The notes under the pieces: model-generated | Seen by the model: the letters and a program-made list of their open reading frames with translations, nothing else | Told to the model about the DNA's origin: nothing | Database searches by the model: none | In this document: positions 1 through 8,630 of the stretch, piece after piece | Numbering within the stretch: position 1 is the first letter of the stretch | Layout: each line of letters starts with the position of its first letter | Origin: an uncultured Ruminococcus sp. | Lineage (GTDB): Bacteria > Bacillota_A > Clostridia > Oscillospirales > Ruminococcaceae | Assembly (NCBI GenBank): GCA_937880065.1 | Contig: CALFMA010000312.1 | Location: 1 to 8,630, forward strand | Length of the DNA: 8,630 nt | Reading direction: 5' to 3' | Translations under genes and position numbers: made by a program

Positions 1-166
1 TGAATACAGCCTCGCCGTATTGCTCAAATATTTCAGGAATAGTCATTTTCTCCTGCTCTACTATGTACTCATCCGAATCTATATATGCAAGTCCCATTGC
101 TTTCGCAAGAAGCTTACCTATTGTAGACTTTCCACACCCCATAAATCCGCAGAGAAAAACCGTCAT
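1..166 (-). CDS. aroK: Shikimate kinase, N-terminal part (cut by left edge)
   Basis: Reading leftward from an ATG at 166-164 gives 55 residues before the window ends, so only the N-terminal fifth to third of a roughly 170-residue protein is present. The start MTVFLCGFMGCGKSTIGKLL contains the P-loop GFMGCGKST (Walker A). It is followed by YIDSDEYI, the shikimate-binding DxD region found just after the P-loop in this family. The enzyme is a cytoplasmic kinase that phosphorylates the 3-hydroxyl of shikimate with ATP, the fifth step towards chorismate. The ATG lies one base after the aroE stop codon, and a Shine-Dalgarno-like AGGTGA lies inside the end of aroE, so translation is probably coupled. 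AroK and AroL cannot be told apart here. The C-terminal lid and the rest of the fold are outside the window. Confidence 0.93.
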   Translation of the reverse strand, partial: MTVFLCGFMGCGKSTIGKLLAKAMGLAYIDSDEYIVEQEKMTIPEIFEQYGEAVF

Positions 167-167
167 T

Positions 168-1004
168 TTATTTCACCTGACCTTCGTTTATCTTATCTTC
201 AACAGCTTTGATAATCTTGTTGATTTCTTCCTCTGAATAAAAATCTCCGTCCCATATCTCATGAGCCTTTACAGCCTGATATACAAGCATTGAAGCTCCA
301 CCGACAGCAACCTTTCCCATAGCCTCTGCCTTTGTGATAAGCTGTGTTTTTACGGGATTATATACTGCATCAAAAACGTGTGTACAGCCTGAAATAATCT
401 CATCTGAAACAGGACAAGCCTCAGTTTTAGGATACATTCCGACAGGTGATGCATTAAGTATAACATCATATTTTCCGTCAAGCTCTGATATAATCGCAAT
501 ATTTACAACAGCTTCGGGAATTTTTGCTGTAATTTCTTCTTTAAGCTTCTGTGCGCTTTCCATAGCCTCAGGAATAATTCCAAGCGTTACGCTTCCGCCG
601 TGAAGAGCAGTTTCAATAGCCATCATTCTGCCTACACCACCACAGCCGATAAGAAGCACATTCTTGTCAAGCGGAAATTCCTTTGTTGCCGTAAGAAATC
701 CGTCACAGTCAGTATTATATCCGATAAGCTTTTCTCCGTCATTTGCAACACAGTTTACGGAATTATATCTTTCTGCACTTTCTGCAAGCTCGTCTATCTG
801 CTTTATGACATTGATTTTATGAGGGATTGTAACATTAAATCCGTTCAGACTTCTGAGAAAATCACCTTTTCCGTCAAGCTCCTCAGGTGATATTTCTTCA
901 AGACTGTATGAGCTTTCACGATTTTTTATTCTGAATAATTCATCGTGAATAAGCGGTGACATAGAATGTCCGAGAGGATATCCTATAAGAGCATATTTTT
1001 TCAT
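168..1004 (-). CDS. aroE: Shikimate dehydrogenase (NADP+)
   Basis: This 278-residue protein has the usual length for AroE, which reduces 3-dehydroshikimate to shikimate with NADPH in the cytoplasm. The substrate half carries SMSPLIH (14-20), NVTIPHK (57-63, catalytic Lys63), Asn84 and GYNTDCDGF (95-103, catalytic Asp99). The nucleotide half has the glycine-rich GCGGVGR (120-126), then NASPVGMYP (184-192), FDAVYNP (211-217) and GGASMLVYQ with Gln243. All key residues are present. Its ATG overlaps the fabD stop by one base (TAATG on the minus strand), and a purine-rich GAGGGGG inside the fabD end serves as ribosome site. aroK follows after one base. The three genes therefore look like one translationally coupled transcript. 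Confidence 0.96.
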   Translation of the reverse strand: MKKYALIGYPLGHSMSPLIHDELFRIKNRESSYSLEEISPEELDGKGDFLRSLNGFNVTIPHKINVIKQIDELAESAERYNSVNCVANDGEKLIGYNTDCDGFLTATKEFPLDKNVLLIGCGGVGRMMAIETALHGGSVTLGIIPEAMESAQKLKEEITAKIPEAVVNIAIISELDGKYDVILNASPVGMYPKTEACPVSDEIISGCTHVFDAVYNPVKTQLITKAEAMGKVAVGGASMLVYQAVKAHEIWDGDFYSEEEINKIIKAVEDKINEGQVK

Positions 1005-1912
1005 TATGCAAATGCCCCCTCAAGTGTTTTTACGTTTTCGATATTGTAAGCATTTACACCCTTGAGTGTTTTCTTTACAAGTCCTGTGAGAACCTTATTA
1101 GGTCCGAACTCAACAAATGTATCAAAACCGTCGTTTACCATAGCGTTAAGCTCTGATGTAAAGCGTACAGGTGATACAATATGCTTTGCAAGTATTTCTG
1201 CCATATCGCTGAAATCAGTAAGCTCTGCACCTGTAAGATTGCTGTAATACTTGATTTCAGGCTTTTTATATGTGATTGTCTTTGCTGTTTCGAAAAATTC
1301 CTTTGAAGCTTCTTCCATAAGCTTTGAATGGAATGCTCCTGCAACATTGAGAGGAACAACTCTTGCCTTTAATTCGGCAAAAATTTCGCTTACCTCAGCA
1401 ATTCCCTCTGGAGTTCCTGCAATAACAGTCTGCTGTGGGGAATTGTAATTTACAGCTGTTACATAGTTCACAGCCTTTGAGCAGATTTCCTCAATTTTTT
1501 CGGGAGCAAGCTTCATAACAGCCGCCATTGCACCCTTTTGCTCTGCTGTAGCCATTTCCATAGCCTCTGCACGGGCTTTTATAAGTCTGAATCCGTCCTC
1601 GGCGGAAACCATACCTGAGCTTACAAGTGCCGCATATTCGCCAAGGGAGTGACCTGCAACACCGTCAAATTTAAATCCTTTTTCAATAGCCGCATTAAGG
1701 CACACGAGAGAAGTGAGCATAATGGCAGGCTGAGCGTTGATAGTTTTTGACAGTTCCTCAATGGGAGCTTCAAAGCAAATCTGCTTCATATCCCTGCCGA
1801 GGATTTCCGACGCTGTATCGTATAAATCCGCCATTTTTGGGAAAGCGTCGTATATGTCCTTTCCCATGCCCTGAGTCTGTGAACCTTGCCCTACGAAAAG
1901 TGAAATAGTCAT
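1004..1912 (-). CDS. fabD: Malonyl-CoA:ACP transacylase
   Basis: This 302-residue protein moves malonyl from CoA to acyl carrier protein, supplying the elongation unit for type II fatty acid synthesis. VGQGSQTQGMG (7-17) is the oxyanion-hole segment. GHSLG (87-91) contains nucleophile Ser89. Arg114 in KARAEAM binds the malonyl carboxylate, and AGAFHS (191-196) supplies catalytic His195. VEFGPNKVLTGLVKK near the C terminus is also typical. The start is well placed against family members, with AAAGGAAC (plus-strand 1924-1931) upstream; the spacing is somewhat long. It is first in a leftward fabD-aroE-aroK operon and is divergent from fabH. In many Firmicutes fabD sits inside the main fab cluster, so this separation is a rearrangement worth noting. 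Confidence 0.96.
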   Translation of the reverse strand: MTISLFVGQGSQTQGMGKDIYDAFPKMADLYDTASEILGRDMKQICFEAPIEELSKTINAQPAIMLTSLVCLNAAIEKGFKFDGVAGHSLGEYAALVSSGMVSAEDGFRLIKARAEAMEMATAEQKGAMAAVMKLAPEKIEEICSKAVNYVTAVNYNSPQQTVIAGTPEGIAEVSEIFAELKARVVPLNVAGAFHSKLMEEASKEFFETAKTITYKKPEIKYYSNLTGAELTDFSDMAEILAKHIVSPVRFTSELNAMVNDGFDTFVEFGPNKVLTGLVKKTLKGVNAYNIENVKTLEGAFA

Positions 1913-1925
1913 AATTTTTTATTGT

Positions 1926-1929
1926 TCCT
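1926..1929 (-). promoter_or_regulatory. Ribosome binding site of fabD
   Basis: The minus strand reads AGGA inside AAAGGAAC. The distance to the fabD ATG is about 13 bases, longer than the optimum, which may lower initiation. No better-placed purine run or alternative start is seen. Confidence 0.6.
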
Positions 1930-1937
1930 TTCTGTGC

Positions 1938-1962
1938 AAATCGTCGAATTAATCAACGATTT
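1938..1962. promoter_or_regulatory. Near-palindrome in fabD leader, possible operator
   Basis: Perfect 7-bp arms AAATCGT and ACGATTT flank 11 bases. After one C/A mismatch the symmetry continues inward through GA and TC. The element lies about 45 to 70 bases downstream of the predicted fabD transcription start and before the ribosome site. It could be a repressor site or an RNA hairpin. A role in lipid control is inference only. Confidence 0.4.
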
Positions 1963-2013
1963 AAGCCGATTATTCTAATAAATCCTGTCTAAAGTGCTGA
2001 AATTTCATTTCCC

Positions 2014-2042
2014 ATTATAAAAAGAGAAAAAAATTCTTGCAA
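2014..2042 (-). promoter_or_regulatory. Promoter of the fabD-aroE-aroK operon
   Basis: On the minus strand TTGCAA (2042-2037) is followed after exactly 17 bases by TATAAT (2019-2014), a perfect -10 box. Transcription would begin near 2007, giving a leader of about 95 nt. The -35 box matches TTGACA at four of six bases. It is the same six bases used by the fabH promoter on the other strand. Confidence 0.7.
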
Positions 2043-2065
2043 AATTTTTGGAAATGATTTACAAT
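2037..2065 (+). promoter_or_regulatory. Promoter of the fabH-fabK cluster
   Basis: TTGCAA (2037-2042) is followed after 17 bases by TACAAT (2060-2065), which matches the -10 consensus at five of six bases. Transcription would start near 2072, leaving a leader of about 205 nt before fabH. The -35 hexamer is self-complementary and is shared with the fabD promoter, so the two polymerases should compete for it. Confidence 0.65.
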
Positions 2066-2095
2066 ATATATGTATACTGTAAAACACCGACCAAG

Positions 2096-2112
2096 TACAC
2101 CTGACGGGTGTA
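2096..2112. promoter_or_regulatory. 17-bp perfect inverted repeat, candidate fab operator
   Basis: TACACC and GGTGTA flank TGACG, giving perfect 6-bp arms. The site sits about 25 to 40 bases after the predicted fabH transcription start, a typical place for a repressor roadblock. It does not match the FapR or FabT consensus that I know. It could equally be a small 5' hairpin in the RNA. Confidence 0.4.
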
Positions 2113-2131
2113 TATTATTACTATAACATAA

Positions 2132-2198
2132 TTTTGAAAATATTACAACACTTTTTTCAAAAATTTCACTTGATTATCTCAGAATTATTGTGTTGTAA
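2132..2198 (+). ncRNA. Interlocking stem arms in the fabH leader
   Basis: TTTTGAAAA (2132-2140) is complementary to TTTTCAAAA (2154-2162). TTACAACAC (2143-2151), lying in the loop of that stem, is complementary to GTGTTGTAA (2190-2198). Both pairings are perfect over 9 bp. Because one arm of the second stem lies inside the first loop, they form either an H-type pseudoknot or two alternative structures. I recognise no known regulatory RNA, and the first pair is AT-only apart from one G-C pair. Confidence 0.35.
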
Positions 2199-2208
2199 CT
2201 GCTCAGCG

Positions 2209-2234
2209 GATAATCCTGACAAATCGGATTAATC
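2209..2234 (+). repeat. Bulged hairpin before the fabH ribosome site
   Basis: GATAATCC (2209-2216) pairs with GGATTAATC (2226-2234) through eight base pairs with one bulged A at 2232 and a 9-nt loop. It ends about 30 bases before AAGGAG and contains the direct repeat AATCGG twice on its 3' side. No U-run follows, so it is not an intrinsic terminator. A role in translation control is possible but unproven. Confidence 0.35.
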
Positions 2235-2263
2235 GGGAGCGATAAATATTAGTGTGGTTTATT

Positions 2264-2269
2264 AAGGAG
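2264..2269 (+). promoter_or_regulatory. Ribosome binding site of fabH
   Basis: AAGGAG lies 7 bases before the ATG at 2277. A second ATG at 2272 is in another frame and too close to the site, so 2277 is the start. Confidence 0.85.
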
Positions 2270-2276
2270 CTATGAA

Positions 2277-3263
2277 ATGGGAGTTAAACTTTTGGCTATG
2301 GGAAGCTATCTTCCCGAAAAAATTATGACAAACGATGACTTTGCGAAATTCCTCGATACAAATGATGAGTGGATTCGCACACGTACAGGCATTACACAGC
2401 GTCATATGGCAGGCTGGGAGCCTGTGTGGTACATGGGAAAAAAGGCTGCTGAAAAGGCAATCGAAAAGGCTGGGATTTCCCCAAAGGACATCGGACTTGT
2501 CATTGTAAGCACCGTTACAAGCGATTTTGTAACACCAAGTATTGCAAGTCTGCTACAGTATGAATTGGGAATTGAAAATGCAGCGGCTTTTGACCTTAAT
2601 GCTGCTTGTTCGGGATTTGTATTTTCACTTGATACCGCAAGAAGATTTCTCGAAACTGATGATAATATGAAATATGCCCTTGTAATCTCAACTGAGGCTA
2701 TTTCACGTATATGCGATTTTGAGGACAGAGGTTCATGTATTCTTTTCGGTGACGGTGCAGCTGCCGCTGTTATCGAAAAAAGCGACAGCCTTTATTCTTC
2801 ATTCCTCAATTCCGACGGTAGCGGTGCAAGAAAGCTTTATGCAAGAAACTGCACTCCTGCCCCAATCGTAAAGCAGGAAACTGATTTCGAGGACGGATTT
2901 GAAAAACAAGCTGTCCACAGCCTGTATCAGGACGGCAGAGAGGTTTATAAATTCGCTGTAAAGGCACTTCCAGCGGCATTTAATGCGGCTGCTGAAAAAA
3001 TCGGCATTACAAGCGAGGAAATTGACTGGTTTGTGCCGCATCAGGCAAATGTGAGAATTATTGAAACTGCCGCTAAAAATCTCGGTGCGTCAATGGATAA
3101 GTTTATAGTTACCCTTGACCACCACGGAAATACTTCAAGCGCATCAATTCCTCTTGCCCTTGACGAAGCTATTGAAAAGGGAATTGTGAAAAGAGGACAA
3201 AAGCTTGCATTGGTAGGCTTTGGTGCAGGTCTTTCCTACGGCAGCGTTATTTTAGAATATTAA
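2277..3263 (+). CDS. fabH: 3-Oxoacyl-ACP synthase III (KAS III)
   Basis: This 328-residue protein condenses acetyl-CoA or a branched starter acyl-CoA with malonyl-ACP to begin each fatty acid. The thiolase-fold catalytic triad is complete: Cys111 in DLNAACSGF, His255 in WFVPHQAN, and Asn285 in DHHGNTSS. The N terminus has the expected NDDFAKFLDTNDEWIRTRTG segment, and the C terminus ends GFGAGLSYGSVILEY as in the family. One oddity is WEPVWYMG (47-54), where relatives usually have a small, polar ETVSTM-like stretch; this lies near the starter CoA entrance. The gene opens the rightward fab cluster, with fabK following after about 85 bases. Straight-chain and branched-chain starter preference cannot be read from the sequence. 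Confidence 0.96.
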   Translation: MGVKLLAMGSYLPEKIMTNDDFAKFLDTNDEWIRTRTGITQRHMAGWEPVWYMGKKAAEKAIEKAGISPKDIGLVIVSTVTSDFVTPSIASLLQYELGIENAAAFDLNAACSGFVFSLDTARRFLETDDNMKYALVISTEAISRICDFEDRGSCILFGDGAAAAVIEKSDSLYSSFLNSDGSGARKLYARNCTPAPIVKQETDFEDGFEKQAVHSLYQDGREVYKFAVKALPAAFNAAAEKIGITSEEIDWFVPHQANVRIIETAAKNLGASMDKFIVTLDHHGNTSSASIPLALDEAIEKGIVKRGQKLALVGFGAGLSYGSVILEY

Positions 3264-3271
3264 TCTATATC

Positions 3272-3289
3272 GGGCGGTAATCTCCGCCC
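3272..3289 (+). repeat. GC-rich hairpin between fabH and fabK
   Basis: GGGCGG and CCGCCC form perfect 6-bp arms around TAATCT, just after the fabH stop. The following bases are CTACAAGG with no U-run, so a terminator is unlikely. It resembles the short GGGCGG-type intergenic palindromes that recur in clostridial genomes. It could affect transcript stability between the two genes. Confidence 0.5.
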
Positions 3290-3334
3290 CTACAAGGAAG
3301 GTTTTATCCCACATAAACAGATAAATGTTGAAAA

Positions 3335-3341
3335 GAGGAGG
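3335..3341 (+). promoter_or_regulatory. Ribosome binding site deciding the fabK start
   Basis: GAGGAGG lies 7 bases before the ATG at 3349. It shows that 3349, not the in-frame ATG at 3325, is the real start. The eight codons after 3325 would be translated through the ribosome site itself. Confidence 0.88.
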
Positions 3342-3348
3342 ACAAATT

Positions 3349-4275
3349 ATGAAAACAAGAATTACAGAATTACTGGGTTGTCAGTACCCCATTATTCAGG
3401 GCGGTATGGCTTGGATTGCAGAGCATAACCTTGCGGCAGCTGTATCAAATGCAGGGGGTATCGGTCTTATCGCAGGCGGCTCAGCTCCTATTGACTATCT
3501 CCGTGAGCAGATTCGTCTTTGCAAGGAGAAAACAGATAAGCCCTTCGGTGTAAATATTATGCTGATGAGTCCAAATGCAGAGGACCTTGCACAGCTTTGT
3601 ATTGATGAAAAAGTTGCTGTTGTAACAACAGGTGCAGGAAATCCCGGAAAATTCATTCCCGCTTGGAAAGAGGCAGGAATCAAGGTAATCCCTGTTATTC
3701 CCTCAGTTGCTCTTGCAAAGCGTATGGAGCGTGCAGGTGCTGACGCTGTAGTTGCAGAGGGTACTGAATCAGGCGGTCATATCGGCGAAAATACAACAAT
3801 GTGCCTTGTTCCGCAGGTTGTGGACGCTCTTGAAATCCCCGTAATTGCCGCAGGCGGTATTGCTGACGGCAGAGGTATTGCGGCTTCATTTATGCTTGGT
3901 GCGGAGGGCGTACAGATTGGTACACGTTTCCTTGCATCTGAGGAATGTCAGATTCACCCCACTTTCAAGGAGCTTGTTGTTAAAGCTAAGGACACAGACA
4001 GCGTTGTAACAGGAAGATACACAGGACACCCTTGCAGAAACATCAAGACAAAGTTCTCCAAAATGCTTGCAAACGGCGAAAAGGACGGCTCACTCACTCC
4101 CGAACAGTTCGAGGAAGTTACTCTCGGTTCTCTCCGTAAAGCAGTTCAGGACGGTAATCTTGAAGAAGGTTCATTCCTCTGCGGTGCTATTGCAGGTATG
4201 ATCAATGATATTAAGCCCTGCGAAGCTATCGTTAAGGAGCTTATGGAACAGGCGGAGAGATTAATTAAGAATTAA
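3349..4275 (+). CDS. fabK: Enoyl-ACP reductase II (FMN-dependent)
   Basis: This 308-residue TIM-barrel flavoprotein of the nitronate-monooxygenase/FabK family reduces trans-2-enoyl-ACP with NAD(P)H, the last step of each elongation cycle. It opens with the family signature CQYPIIQGGMAWIAEHNLA. SAP (45-47) and GVNIMLM (67-73) follow. SGGHIGE contains His144, the position reported as catalytic in pneumococcal FabK. AAGGIADGRGI (167-177) and EGVQIGTRFLASEEC bind FMN phosphate. FabK enzymes are unrelated to FabI and, as a family, are insensitive to triclosan. The last codons (LIKN) run into an AATTAAGAATT repeat, suggesting that the exact C terminus is repeat-derived. A nitronate monooxygenase is the alternative, but length, His144 and the fab context favour FabK. 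Confidence 0.94.
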   Translation: MKTRITELLGCQYPIIQGGMAWIAEHNLAAAVSNAGGIGLIAGGSAPIDYLREQIRLCKEKTDKPFGVNIMLMSPNAEDLAQLCIDEKVAVVTTGAGNPGKFIPAWKEAGIKVIPVIPSVALAKRMERAGADAVVAEGTESGGHIGENTTMCLVPQVVDALEIPVIAAGGIADGRGIAASFMLGAEGVQIGTRFLASEECQIHPTFKELVVKAKDTDSVVTGRYTGHPCRNIKTKFSKMLANGEKDGSLTPEQFEEVTLGSLRKAVQDGNLEEGSFLCGAIAGMINDIKPCEAIVKELMEQAERLIKN

Positions 4276-4301
4276 GAATTATGAATTAAGAATTGTGAAT
4301 A
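4274..4301 (+). repeat. Two 14-bp tandem AAGAATTATGAATT-type units
   Basis: AAGAATTATGAATT (4274-4287) is followed directly by AAGAATTGTGAATA (4288-4301), with two mismatches. It continues a run begun in the last fabK codons. Such AATTAAGAATT low-complexity repeats are common between genes of Ruminococcus-like genomes. No function is evident. Confidence 0.7.
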
Positions 4302-4324
4302 AATTCGTAATTATTTTTTCAAGC

Positions 4325-4352
4325 TTTTAGCCGTTAGCCATTAGCTTTTAGC
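4325..4352 (+). repeat. Four tandem heptamers NNTTAGC
   Basis: TTTTAGC, CGTTAGC, CATTAGC and TTTTAGC run head to tail. A reverse-oriented copy (GGCTAACAGC, 4699-4708) lies on the far side of the small DUF4177-like gene, and its reverse complement matches nine of ten bases of GCCGTTAGCC at 4329-4338. The repeats thus frame the segment between fabK and fabG. Confidence 0.7.
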
Positions 4353-4374
4353 TTTCTGAACGGCAGAGCTGGAT

Positions 4375-4428
4375 TCTGTAGAGGCTGACGGGCAGCACCC
4401 GCTGGCATCGGGTAGTCCGTGATACAGA
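4375..4428 (+). ncRNA. Foldable RNA-like segment of unknown class
   Basis: Three nested helices can form: TCTGTA (4375-4380) with TACAGA (4423-4428), ACGG (4388-4391) with CCGT (4417-4420), and ACCCG (4397-4401) with CGGGT (4409-4413) around the 7-base loop CTGGCAT. Two asymmetric internal loops separate them. The GC-rich segment stands out from its AT-rich surroundings and lies about 40 bases before the small gene. It is not a tRNA and I match it to no known riboswitch. It may be a leader RNA, part of a repeat element, or chance. Confidence 0.35.
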
Positions 4429-4466
4429 TATTGTAAACATTGTAAGATATAAGGATAGGGATTATT

Positions 4467-4679
4467 ATGAAAAGATATAAATTTATAAGAATGACATACA
4501 AGGTGCTAAAAGGCGGATACGTAACTGCAAAAGAGGACGGATACCGTAACCACAGAACAGTAATCAGAGATATGGCTGTTCTTGGTTGGCGGTTTGTAAG
4601 TCAACTTCCCGTTGAGGTAGGCAGTTATGGTGCAATCGCCAGCTACGACCTTGTATTTGAAATTGATTGTGAAAATTAA
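4467..4679 (+). CDS. Small DUF4177-like protein
   Basis: This 70-residue protein begins MKRYKFIRMTYKVLKGGY and later has LGWRFVSQLP (39-48) and YDLVFEID near its end. The pattern of an N-terminal YKF strand, a central GWxFV and a final beta strand LVFE resembles DUF4177, a family of small alpha/beta proteins without an assigned role. There is no signal peptide, membrane segment or cysteine cluster. AAGGAT with a nearby AGGG lies about 10 bases upstream of the ATG, a moderate ribosome site. It sits between fabK and fabG in the same direction, framed by repeats. A place in the fab transcript is likely, but participation in lipid synthesis is not shown. Family assignment is by pattern only. Confidence 0.75.
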   Translation: MKRYKFIRMTYKVLKGGYVTAKEDGYRNHRTVIRDMAVLGWRFVSQLPVEVGSYGAIASYDLVFEIDCEN

Positions 4680-4709
4680 AACAATTGCCAGATTTAAAGG
4701 CTAACAGCT

Positions 4710-4728
4710 TGCTTTGCTAAGCAAAGCA
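4710..4728 (+). repeat. Perfect hairpin before fabG
   Basis: TGCTTTGC and GCAAAGCA form 8-bp perfect arms around TAA. Only three T residues follow before AAAATGGAGG, so it is a weak terminator at best. It may attenuate transcription or protect the fabG mRNA end, or it may be one end of the repeat-framed segment. Confidence 0.6.
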
Positions 4729-4736
4729 TTTAAAAT

Positions 4737-4741
4737 GGAGG
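4737..4741 (+). promoter_or_regulatory. Ribosome binding site of fabG
   Basis: GGAGG lies 6 bases before the ATG at 4748, supporting that start. Confidence 0.85.
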
Positions 4742-4747
4742 TAAAAT

Positions 4748-5494
4748 ATGGCTACAGCAATTATCACAGGCGCATCACAGGGAATAGGCGCTTGTATTGC
4801 AAAAAGACTTGCTAAAGACGGCTTTGATGTCGTTATAAATCATTCACCAAAGGAAAGCAGTAAGGAAAAGGCACTTGCTGTTGCGGCTGAATGTGAGGCT
4901 TTCGGCGTTAAGGCAATATGTATTGCCGCCGATGTTTCACAGTTCGACCAGTGCGAGGCTATGGTTAAGCAGACAAAGGCTGAATTCGGCACAATTGATG
5001 TTCTCGTAAATAATGCAGGCATCACAAAGGACACCCTCCTTGCACGTATGAAAGAGGAGGATTACGACGCTGTAATCGCTGTAAATCAGAAAAGCGTCTA
5101 CAATATGTTAAAACATACCTGCGCTGTAATGATGAAACAGCGTCACGGCAGAATTATAAATATCACCTCTGTTGCAGGTCTTTACGGCAATGCAGGACAG
5201 GTGAACTATTCCGCTTCAAAGGCAGCTATAATCGGTATGACTAAAACCGTAGCAAAGGAGTTCGGTTCACGCAATATCACTTGTAATGCCGTTGCTCCGG
5301 GACTTATCCGCACACCTATGACGGACGTGCTTTCCGATGAGCTTAAAGCAAAAATGCTTTCCGCAATCGCTCTCGGCAGATACGGCGAGCCTGAGGAAGT
5401 TGCTTCTGTTGTGTCATTCCTCGCATCTGAGGACGCACATTACGTCACAGGTGAGACCATCACCCTCCAGGGTGGAAGTGGTCTCAGACCATAA
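4748..5494 (+). CDS. fabG: 3-Oxoacyl-ACP reductase
   Basis: This 248-residue short-chain dehydrogenase reduces 3-ketoacyl-ACP to 3-hydroxyacyl-ACP with NADPH. TGASQGIG (7-14) is the Rossmann dinucleotide motif, ADV (61-63) contacts adenine, and NNAG (88-91) stabilises the core. The catalytic set is Asn113, Ser141, Tyr154 and Lys158, the last two in YSASK. VAPGLIRTPMT (182-192) follows as usual. The length fits FabG. The last residues, LQGGSGLRP, are unusual, because FabG proteins often end in a DGGM-type motif that closes the tetramer interface. This end is encoded by a nested palindrome at the join with DNA of another style, so the final 10 codons or so may not be native. Position next to fabK supports FabG rather than another reductase. 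Confidence 0.92.
   Translation: MATAIITGASQGIGACIAKRLAKDGFDVVINHSPKESSKEKALAVAAECEAFGVKAICIAADVSQFDQCEAMVKQTKAEFGTIDVLVNNAGITKDTLLARMKEEDYDAVIAVNQKSVYNMLKHTCAVMMKQRHGRIINITSVAGLYGNAGQVNYSASKAAIIGMTKTVAKEFGSRNITCNAVAPGLIRTPMTDVLSDELKAKMLSAIALGRYGEPEEVASVVSFLASEDAHYVTGETITLQGGSGLRP
5452..5486. repeat. Nested palindrome at the fabG 3' end
   Basis: TGAGACCA (5452-5459) is complementary to TGGTCTCA (5479-5486). Inside it CACCCT (5461-5466) is complementary to AGGGTG (5469-5474). TGGTCTCAGACCA (5479-5491) is also a palindrome with a single central base, and AGACCAT is repeated directly at 5454 and 5486. No U-run follows. It lies at the change of sequence style and could be a mark of the join. Confidence 0.6.
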
Positions 5495-5508
5495 CAAATG
5501 ATACGACA

Positions 5509-6849
5509 ATGGGTTTTCTTCAGAATTTCAAGGAACTGATAAAGAACACGGCCAATCTGGCCGGATACATAGATACGGAAGCCGCGGAGAAATCCATCCG
5601 CGGCAATATCTATTTTCGTGGTCCCAACGCATGGATTCTTGCCATTGCCACCATCATCGCTTCGGTCGGACTGAACGTCAATTCCATCCCCGTGGTGATC
5701 GGAGCCATGCTCATCTCCCCTCTCATGGGTCCTATCTTCGGATTAGGTCTTGGCCTGGGTGTCAATGACATGGCATTGATGAAGTCGTCAGGAAAGCATC
5801 TTCTCGTGATGGTATCCATCAGCCTTGCAGCGTCATTCCTGTACTTTCTGATCACACCACTCAGCCTGAGCAATCCTACTGAACTTCTGGCAAGGACCAA
5901 CCCCACGATATACGACGTGCTCATAGCACTCTTCGGAGGTTTCGCCGGAATCCTAGAACAATGCAGGAAAGAGAAAGGAACAGTTTTCTCCGGTGTAGCT
6001 ATCGCGACTGCTCTCATGCCACCTCTTTGTACGGCGGGTTTCGGTCTTGCAAGCGGCAACCTGAGCTATTTCATCGGGGCCTTATACCTCTTCACCATAA
6101 ATTGTCTGTTCATCATGCTTGCGACCTACGTCAGCGTCAAGTATTTCAGATTCAGGAAAGTGGAATATGAGGACCAGCTGACTGGCCGGAAGACCCAGAG
6201 AATCAGCACCTTGCTCATAATCCTGTTCATCATTCCAAGCATCTGGTCTGCTGTGACACTTATAAGCCACAATAATTTCGAAGATAAAGCGACATCGTTC
6301 GTCGAGCACAGCAAGGCATACAACAAAAGTATAATCTATGACTACAAGATAGACCATAGCGACGGATCGAAAATCGAGCTGTTCTTTACAGGAGAGCCTA
6401 TGAACGAGATGACCGAAGAAGCTATATATCAGGCTGCAGCCACCTACGGTCTGACGCAGGAACAGATCCTGATAAACGACCATACTGTAACTGATAACAC
6501 CAACGACCTGGAATTGATCAAGGGCATTTACGACAGAATGGATACAGAAGTCGGAAAGAGAGATGAGGAAATCAGACGGCTTCAGGAAGAACTCCTGGTA
6601 GCTAAAGGGAATGACATACCATATATACAGCTCACACGTGAGATCATCAACATGTATCCGTCCGTAAAGCATGTATTCATAGGACAGGGAGCCAACGTTT
6701 CCGCAGACTCCCTGAAACTGTCTCCTCATATTTCCGTTACAGTGACATGCTCCCCTGCTATGCCATCAGAAGATTCCCTCCGTCTCGGAGAATGGCTCAA
6801 GGTGCGTCTCGACACACAAGACTTATCACTGTATCAGGCTGAAGAATAA
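5509..6849 (+). CDS. DUF389 family integral membrane protein
   Basis: This 446-residue protein has about seven hydrophobic segments: roughly 41-58, 61-84, 97-116, 134-150, 158-181, 186-209 and 232-252. They carry the DUF389 hallmarks SVGLNVNS, VIGAMLISPLMGPI (63-76), RKEKG (153-157) and GVAIATALMPPLCTAG (162-177). The soluble C-terminal part (about 255-446) includes a charged, probably coiled stretch RDEEIRRLQEELLVAKG (351-367). The family's function is unassigned; it is presumed to act in the cytoplasmic membrane. The version resembles Bacteroidota members in length and wording. There is no Shine-Dalgarno site, as is common there. The start is 14 bases after the fabG stop, yet composition and codon use differ sharply from fabG. 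It converges on the ferritin gene. Confidence 0.88.
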   Translation: MGFLQNFKELIKNTANLAGYIDTEAAEKSIRGNIYFRGPNAWILAIATIIASVGLNVNSIPVVIGAMLISPLMGPIFGLGLGLGVNDMALMKSSGKHLLVMVSISLAASFLYFLITPLSLSNPTELLARTNPTIYDVLIALFGGFAGILEQCRKEKGTVFSGVAIATALMPPLCTAGFGLASGNLSYFIGALYLFTINCLFIMLATYVSVKYFRFRKVEYEDQLTGRKTQRISTLLIILFIIPSIWSAVTLISHNNFEDKATSFVEHSKAYNKSIIYDYKIDHSDGSKIELFFTGEPMNEMTEEAIYQAAATYGLTQEQILINDHTVTDNTNDLELIKGIYDRMDTEVGKRDEEIRRLQEELLVAKGNDIPYIQLTREIINMYPSVKHVFIGQGANVSADSLKLSPHISVTVTCSPAMPSEDSLRLGEWLKVRLDTQDLSLYQAEE

Positions 6850-6852
6850 CTT

Positions 6853-7377
6853 TTACTCTGCCGATGCAGCAAGCGGAGACGGTACATTGTAGACACGTGC
6901 CGCCTGCTCCTTGTCAAGCATGTACATGCCGTATTTGTTGCCTTCCACGGCTTCAAATGCGGCAATCATGTCTCTTGCAGATTCCTCTTCCTCCACCTGC
7001 TCGTCGATGAACCAGTTGAGGCGGTTGATGGATGCGAAATCTCTGTCGTCATTTGCGATGGCTGCGAGATTGTGGATGAGTGCGGTCACCTTCTTCTCAT
7101 GTTCAAGCGTCTGCTTGTACATGTCCAGCACGCTTGCCCACTCTGAAGGAACTTCCGCGATAGGAGCAAGCTCCACCTTGGCGTCCTGGGAGTTGAGATA
7201 GTTCATGAAGATTCTGGCGTGATCCTGCTCCTCCTTGAACTGGATGAAGAACCAGTTGGCTACACCCTTGTGGCCTTTGGCTTCAGCGTCAAGAGACATT
7301 GCAAGATAGAGATATGCTGACCAGAGTTCAGCATTGATCTGTGCATTGATAGCATCATGGAGATTTTTTGAAATCAT
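6853..7377 (-). CDS. ftnA: Bacterial non-haem ferritin
   Basis: This 174-residue protein is an iron-storage ferritin that oxidises Fe(II) and stores it as a mineral in a 24-subunit cage in the cytoplasm. The ferroxidase residues are all in place with the numbering of E. coli FtnA: Glu17, Glu50, His53, Glu94, Gln127 and Glu130, with Glu49 and Glu126 as likely third-site ligands. Characteristic segments are NAELWSAYLYLAMS (15-28), FKEEQDHARIFMNYL (47-61) and FIDEQVEEEESARDM (123-137). It lacks the haem-binding methionine context of bacterioferritin. No ribosome site is seen, but a clear Bacteroidota-type promoter lies upstream. Its stop is 3 bases from that of the DUF389 gene, and ffh diverges upstream. 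Confidence 0.95.
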   Translation of the reverse strand: MISKNLHDAINAQINAELWSAYLYLAMSLDAEAKGHKGVANWFFIQFKEEQDHARIFMNYLNSQDAKVELAPIAEVPSEWASVLDMYKQTLEHEKKVTALIHNLAAIANDDRDFASINRLNWFIDEQVEEEESARDMIAAFEAVEGNKYGMYMLDKEQAARVYNVPSPLAASAE

Positions 7378-7440
7378 ATTATCAAGTATTTAAGTGTTTA
7401 ATATTGTCTGTTATTTATAATTATTCTAAATTATTTACTA

Positions 7441-7471
7441 CAAATATAGCATTTAAAATTGCTAATGCAAA
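7441..7471 (-). promoter_or_regulatory. Bacteroidota-type promoter of ftnA
   Basis: On the minus strand TTTG (7471-7468) is followed after exactly 19 bases by TATATTTG (7448-7441), matching the Bacteroidota consensus TTTG-N19-TAnnTTTG recognised by the primary sigma factor of that phylum. Transcription should start near 7435, giving a leader of about 58 nt. This is direct evidence that this half of the window is Bacteroidota DNA. Confidence 0.8.
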
Positions 7472-7494
7472 GGAATTGCAAAGGGTTTGCCAAA
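7466..7494. repeat. 11-bp direct repeats over the ftnA -33 box
   Basis: TGCAAAGGAAT (7466-7476) and TGCAAAGGGTT (7477-7487) are adjacent copies differing at two bases, with a partial third, TGCCAAA (7488-7494). The 11-bp period puts the copies on about the same face of the helix, and the first copy covers the -33 TTTG. A regulator site for iron or oxidative stress control is possible but not shown. Confidence 0.45.
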
Positions 7495-7538
7495 AAAAAT
7501 GGTTAAATTCGCGGTCTTGAATAAAATTTACACGAGAT

Positions 7539-8630
7539 ATGTTTGAAAATCTTTCAGATAGGCTGGAAAGATCCTTCAAGATACTGAAGGGTGAAGGTAA
7601 GATTACCGAAGTCAATGTCGCTGAGACCCTCAAGGAGATTCGCAGGGCCCTGCTTGACGCCGACGTTTCATACAAGGTTGCAAAGGAATTTTGTGACAAG
7701 GTGAAGGCAAAGGCCATGGGCGCAAATGTGCTCACAGCCGTGAAGCCTCAGCAGATGATCGTGAAGATCGTCCATGACGAACTCGCAGCCCTGATGGGAA
7801 GCGAATCTTCCGACATCAACGTGAAGGGTTCGCCAGCAGTAGTGCTCGTAGCCGGTCTGAACGGTTCCGGTAAGACCACATTCTCCGGAAAGCTTGCCCT
7901 CAACATCAAGAGCAAGCGAGGGATGAGAGTCCTTCTGGCGGCCTGCGACTATTTCCGTCCTGCGGCTATCGACCAGCTGAAGGTGCTCGGAGAGCAGATC
8001 GGAGTGGAGGTTTACTCTGAGGAAGGCGTAAAGGATCCTATCCAGATCGCTCAGAACGCCATCAAGAAGGCCAAGGCTGAGGGATATTCAGTCGTGATCG
8101 TCGATACAGCCGGTCGTCTGGCTGTGGATCAGGAGCTCATGGATGAGATCTCGGCACTTCACTCTGCCGTCCAGCCGACAGAAACTCTCTTCGTAGTGGA
8201 TGCAATGACAGGTCAGGATGCAGTGGAGACTGCCAAGGCATTCAACGACAGACTCGACTTCGACGGAGTGGTCCTCACAAAGATGGACGGTGACACCCGC
8301 GGTGGTGCGGCTCTTTCGATCAAGGCTGTTGTAGGAAAGCCGATCAAGTTTGTCAGCACAGGTGAGAAGATGGAGGCTCTGGATGTGTTCCACCCCGCAC
8401 GTATCGCAGACCGAATCCTCGGCATGGGTGACGTTGTTTCCCTCGTGGAGAAGGCTCAGGAACAGTTCGATGAGGCACAGGCACGTGAGCTGAAGAAGAA
8501 GCTCGCAAAGGATCAGTTCACTCTCTGGGATTTCTACAATCAGATCCAGCAGATAAAGAAGATGGGTAACATCAAGGACCTCGCTTCGATGATTCCGGGT
8601 ATGGGCAAGGCTCTAAAGGATGTCGATATG
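7539..8630 (+). CDS. ffh: Signal recognition particle GTPase Ffh (cut by right edge)
   Basis: An open frame of 364 codons starts at ATG 7539 (MFENLSDRLERSFKILKGEG) and runs off the window without a stop; full-length Ffh is about 430 to 450 residues. Ffh binds signal sequences of nascent membrane proteins and 4.5S RNA, and it delivers ribosomes to FtsY. The N domain (1 to about 95) includes LKEIRRALLDADV. In the G domain, G1 is GLNGSGKTT (106-114), then DYFRPAA (137-143), DTAGR (189-193) and TKMDGDTRGGAA (247-258). GEKMEALDVFHPARIADRILGMGD leads into the methionine-bearing M domain (from about 295), of which about 70 residues are present, including MIPGMGKA. Methionine in TKMD replaces the usual leucine, a mild change. 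No Shine-Dalgarno site is seen. The wording resembles Bacteroidota Ffh. Confidence 0.95.
   Translation, partial: MFENLSDRLERSFKILKGEGKITEVNVAETLKEIRRALLDADVSYKVAKEFCDKVKAKAMGANVLTAVKPQQMIVKIVHDELAALMGSESSDINVKGSPAVVLVAGLNGSGKTTFSGKLALNIKSKRGMRVLLAACDYFRPAAIDQLKVLGEQIGVEVYSEEGVKDPIQIAQNAIKKAKAEGYSVVIVDTAGRLAVDQELMDEISALHSAVQPTETLFVVDAMTGQDAVETAKAFNDRLDFDGVVLTKMDGDTRGGAALSIKAVVGKPIKFVSTGEKMEALDVFHPARIADRILGMGDVVSLVEKAQEQFDEAQARELKKKLAKDQFTLWDFYNQIQQIKKMGNIKDLASMIPGMGKALKDVDM

Follow-up and report, generated by a model that had tools for sequence, protein, structure and literature searches.

A cross-phylum contig with Ruminococcus fatty-acid genes and a Bacteroidales ffh gene as a very probable product of metagenome misassembly inside genes

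The presence of a Firmicute fatty-acid operon and a Bacteroidota ffh gene on one stretch of 8,630 nucleotides, which was analyzed at full length and is referred to as the window, raises the question of whether a core gene was transferred between phyla or whether DNA of different organisms was joined artificially. The original prediction placed one abrupt join near 5490, between two genes that appeared intact, and preferred a chimeric contig over horizontal transfer of a block containing ffh. This preference was supported by our analysis: the pieces match different genomes, uniform versions of the genes in which they are joined occur elsewhere, and no listed Ruminococcus alignment passes 5461. 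The assumption of a single join had to be given up, since at least three were found, the additional ones being located at 1316-1336 in fabD and in DUF389. With very high confidence, we regard the window as a misassembled metagenome contig composed of DNA from two Ruminococcus species and from Bacteroidales, with switches inside genes at shared words of about 21 bases; it is almost certainly not the DNA of one single organism. What looks like a mixture of phyla is an artefact and not a real biological feature, because the assembler seems to have fused different genomes at short common words inside genes, and a transfer of ffh is unnecessary to account for the window. The pieces, joins and genes are as follows:

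1..1336: piece A, from the Ruminococcus species represented by G361; with an aroK-like gene (end only), aroE and the 3' portion of fabD, minus strand; 1333 of 1336 bases identical to G361
1316..1336: join 1, inside fabD; exact 21-base word common to both sources
1337..5415: piece B, from a second Ruminococcus source near L003 (RGIG2991) and L002 (RGIG6314); 5' part of fabD, fabH, fabK and most of fabG
4748..5494, plus strand: hybrid frame called fabG, 248 amino acids; Ruminococcus FabG joined in frame to the tail of a Bacteroidales short-chain dehydrogenase (SDR)
5416..5436, plus strand: join 2, where homology to Ruminococcus and homology to Bacteroidales overlap by about 21 bases (20-22, according to the relative compared); codons of FLASEDA
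5437..5494, plus strand: tail of the Bacteroidales SDR gene; 12 genomes share 45-50 of its 58 bases
5509..5817, plus strand: N-terminal part of DUF389, Bacteroidales source C; residues 1-103 96% identical to P0127 (nearest) and 79% to P0121
5818..6050, plus strand: zone of join 3, inside DUF389; protein-level evidence only
6051..6849, plus strand: C-terminal part of DUF389, Bacteroidales source D; residues 181-446 99.6% identical to P0121, next 84%
6853..7377, minus strand: Bacteroidales ferritin gene; ferritin-like, under the curated cut-off; 86% protein identity to L004
7471 to 7441, minus strand: one perfect copy of the promoter-like motif TTTG-N19-TAnnTTTG, upstream of the ferritin gene
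7539..8630, plus strand: Bacteroidales ffh, truncated by the window end; several genomes of a single Bacteroidales genus are 84% identical at the DNA level

Most of what had been predicted about composition, signals and gene content was confirmed. The GC content is 38.9% in 1-1336, 43.1% in 1337-5436 and 48.8% in 5437-8630, and the GC3 values are lower on the left (0.29-0.43 for aroE, fabD, fabH, fabK and fabG) than on the right (0.57-0.64 for DUF389, ferritin and ffh). Oligonucleotide profiles were compared as trinucleotides with six loci; 1-1336 and 1337-5436 were closest to Ruminococcus and 5437-8630 was closest to Bacteroidales. Clear Shine-Dalgarno-like sites are located 5' of fabH, fabK (inner ATG 3349), fabG and aroE, so that the strong AGGAGG sites described for the left side stand for these genes but not for fabD, where the site is weak; as described for the right side, none is visible 5' of DUF389, ferritin and ffh. 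The longest fabK frame begins with ATG 3325, while a strong AGAGGAGG site is located 5' of the inner ATG 3349, which is the likelier start. NCBIfam profiles of fabD, FabH, FabK (TIGR03151, 472.6 bits vs. a cut-off of 453.1), FabG, the DUF389 protein (TIGR00341) and ffh (TIGR00959, 509.7 bits vs. 473.2) exceeded their curated cut-offs, and aroE and ferritin scored below theirs. FabK on the left was thereby verified; the perfect promoter-like motif on the right was confirmed in the sequence.

At the fabD join, both sources and the exact 21-base overlap were observed directly. When 1-1400 was compared with 125 Ruminococcus genomes (121 with a match), G361 was 99% identical over 1-1366, and the second-best genome reached 84%. 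The window follows G361 up to 1336 (last match) and L003 from 1316 onwards (first match), which gives an overlap of exactly 21 bases. In 1000-1366, 362 of 367 bases are identical to G361 and 260 to L003; in 1367-1912, 538 of 546 bases are identical to L003 and 359 to G361. The two sides of the join thus match different close genomes (99.8% and 98.5%), and the join lies on a word common to both. This word is the longest one shared by G361 and L003 inside fabD, the next having 20 bases. Elsewhere along the loci, the two sources share five longer words of 23-28 bases at which no switch occurred. This counts against our best explanation, and a shared word is therefore necessary but insufficient for a join.

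Downstream of this join, the window shares its gene order with the Ruminococcus operon aroK-aroE-fabD / fabH-fabK-fabG-fabF-like-acc of L002 and L003, with 96-99% DNA identity over most of 1316-5436. Identity to L003 is 98.8% in 2181-3263 and 97.9% in 3331-4263, and identity to L002 is 96.1% in 4446-5436. In L002, L003 and G361, the operon runs past fabG to a fabF-like gene and more fatty-acid genes (names read by eye), whereas the window exits inside fabG. Additional strain switches may be present within piece B. The window lacks a repeat cluster and a restriction-modification pair present in L003 at 3263-3331 and 4263-4446; these positions may mark further joins or, equally well, natural strain differences. 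The restriction-modification pair of the Ruminococcus MAG RGIG2991 (L003:7799-9498), which is also missing in L002, is located between fabK and fabG and consists of a C-5 cytosine methylase (PF00145) and an R.HinP1I-like endonuclease (PF11463). In the window, the gap between fabK and fabG holds a short dispersed repeat (4251-4367) that is found at many sites of the Ruminococcus genomes G003 and G002. Ruminococcus-like fabD-fabH-fabK-fabG, 67-75% identical to the window, is present on a MAG contig whose title gives the Bacteroidota name Alistipes senegalensis (L054:2500-10539); this record is presumably mislabelled or misbinned.

The second join leads from Ruminococcus to Bacteroidales within the frame called fabG. 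Compared with the Ruminococcus FabG P0001, 229 of 230 residues are identical, followed by 6 of 16, and it is this departure of the protein end from the family pattern that flags the true join. The C-terminal ending GSGLRP was found in none of 120 FabG homologues among the matches listed (8000 scored), 102 of which end with SGGLSM; it occurs in the SDR of L001. Exact runs shared with Ruminococcus comprise 5330-5436 for L002 (107 bases) and 5387-5437 for L003, and beyond 5436 the identity to L002 per 20-base bin is 10, 8 and 4. No alignment of 4300-5500 extended beyond 5461 among the matches listed for 125 Ruminococcus genomes, 119 of which had a match. On the other side, 400 genomes of the Bacteroidales genus to which L001 belongs were searched; the SDR tail was found in 16, and 12 of these 16 were covered by base-by-base comparison. 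In the 12 genomes, 3-4 of 15 bases match in 5401-5415, position 5415 is mismatched in every genome, homology starts at 5416 in seven and at 5417 in five, and 14-18 of 20 bases match in 5417-5436. The left side of the join is 96% identical to L002, and the right side matches relatives only, at the 45-50 of 58 bases given above. The exact 21 bases 5416-5436 were present in none of these 12 genomes (2-7 differences), which is a further point against the best explanation. Since longer matches between the Ruminococcus part of FabG and these SDRs otherwise reach no more than about 30-34% identity, the overlap is probably a word shared by chance within a motif common among SDRs. The abrupt taxonomic and compositional switch predicted near 5490 was thus recovered in GC3 and trinucleotides, but its place is about 5416-5436 inside fabG, some 55-75 bases further left and outside the predicted interval 5475-5511. 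Likewise, both neighboring frames are open, as had been stated, but not intact. The sequence comparisons show fabG to be a hybrid of Ruminococcus and Bacteroidales, with its limits placed on relatives, and DUF389 to be a hybrid at the protein level.

The 14-base spacer between the two frames is best read as the spacer of an SDR-DUF389 pair. In L001 (Bacteroidales MAG RGIG7439), a 253-residue SDR ends with FLASEDAAYVTGETVTLQGGSGLRP and DUF389 starts 54 bases further on, so that, as in the window, the SDR tail is followed by DUF389 in the same orientation, with a spacer of 54 instead of 14 bases. After DUF389, a LuxR-like gene follows in RGIG7439, and ferritin and ffh follow in the window. DUF389 was found directly downstream of the SDR in one of 12 loci (G001, the genome of L001), with short flanks searched; this arrangement thus occurs naturally in at least one genome and is not general. 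The single occurrence and the different spacer count against the best explanation. In L221 and L228 of the same Bacteroidales genus, the LuxR-like gene is located directly after the SDR, and L001:1456-4197 has DUF389 between them, a difference that by gene order is presumably an insertion or loss of DUF389.

For the third join, between two Bacteroidales sources, protein rather than DNA comparison was used, and the split at residues 103/104 was picked after the data had been seen. Relative to P0121, the DUF389 protein of the window shows 22 differences in residues 1-103 and one in residues 104-446 (79% vs. 99.7% identity). The resulting difference of C-terminal minus N-terminal identity (0.211) is the largest of 7260 pairs, obtained from 122 sequences minus P0232, which was left out for coverage, and the pair of the window with P0122 is second (0.108). 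Among pairs that do not involve the window, the difference averages -0.076 and reaches 0.054 at most. P0121 as the hybrid was rejected: its N-terminal part agrees with P0122 (96%) and P0123 (91%), and in the C-terminal part these two are again the proteins closest to it, leaving the window aside. As P0121 is consistent with both in both parts, the window is the hybrid.

We propose that the assembler would pass between genomes where both hold an identical word of about 21 bases inside a coding sequence, namely from Ruminococcus to Ruminococcus in fabD, from Ruminococcus to Bacteroidales in fabG/SDR, and from Bacteroidales to Bacteroidales in DUF389. The joining would have taken place during de Bruijn graph assembly at a k of about 21, and the actual Bacteroidales source would have the identical 21 bases at 5416-5436. 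As these words would be read in one and the same frame on both sides, the hybrid frames remain open and appear intact. Several sources within 8.6 kb, in-frame joins in conserved genes and overlaps of about 21 bases (one measured, one inferred) fit de Bruijn assembly with k near 21. In assembly, 21 is a usual smallest k.

Chimeric contigs formed through shared k-mers are described in the literature (PMC7299287), and such misassemblies are common (PMC7299287, PMC9661791). Inter-genome translocations were reported as the commonest error in CAMI datasets, with more of them from MEGAHIT than from IDBA_UD (PMC9661791). One rumen study assembled from k 21 (PMC6327033); that study is not claimed as the source of the window. 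Like the inter-genome translocations described for short-read metagenome assemblers (PMC7299287, PMC9661791), the window joins different genomes via shared k-mers. It is the same in kind as known interspecies chimeric contigs and merely dense, with three joins in 8.6 kb; two of these link different species of one phylum, which is nothing new in kind among known misassemblies.

A similar outcome could arise before sequencing if template switching during amplification fused DNA of different cells at short homologies into a physical laboratory chimera. Template switching likewise joins at short common words and keeps frames by chance. With three joins in 8.6 kb and a majority-like consensus, however, the same rare molecules would have to dominate, and an overlap of exactly 21 at one join and 20-22 at the other is fitted better by a fixed k; we consider this origin very unlikely. 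Even less probable, and in our judgment close to excluded, is real recombination in which the Ruminococcus fatty-acid operon of a living cell received Bacteroidales DNA together with ffh, or vice versa. All frames are open, which speaks for this, but three hybrids, each joined in frame from nearly identical copies of known genomes, would be needed, and the junction was absent from relatives and from any independent genome among the matches listed (125 Ruminococcus genomes and 400 of a Bacteroidales genus). Within the window there is no tRNA, no mobile gene is among the eight main frames named, and 5000-6000 gave no near-identity plasmid match. Among viral contigs, no confirmed relative of the window and no copy of the exact junction word were found.

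Hardly more credible is a real organism with in-frame hybrid fabD, fabG and DUF389, generated by repeated, very recent recombination of two Ruminococcus species and Bacteroidales at identities of about 21 bases; if it existed, a Bacteroidota ffh would adjoin a Firmicute fatty-acid operon. The lowest probability, practically nil, is assigned to a single join near 5490 that would separate two intact genes. This reading is suggested by the two open frames 14 bases apart and contradicted by the alignments, as 5437-5494 within the fabG frame corresponds to the Bacteroidales SDR and two further joins are present. Real transfer was rejected on the above evidence, and so was a join located solely at the stop codon of fabG.

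Misassembly at shared words removes the apparent cross-phylum mixing of the core gene ffh. Tight spacing and open frames at a taxonomic border are a trap and no argument against misassembly, because the frame is preserved when the shared word belongs to a common motif, and such hybrids can enter protein databases as seemingly new variants. With regard to a possible further join at about 7460-7492, 400 genomes of the Bacteroidales genus were searched, 372 of which had a match, and no adjacency of ferritin and ffh was found among the matches listed; where both genes occurred in one genome among listed matches, they were on different contigs or far apart (28 kb in G269, about 97 kb in G651). The nearest named sources L001, L002 and L003 are MAGs from the hindgut of buffalo, sheep and goat, and the sample was probably a ruminant-type gut community.
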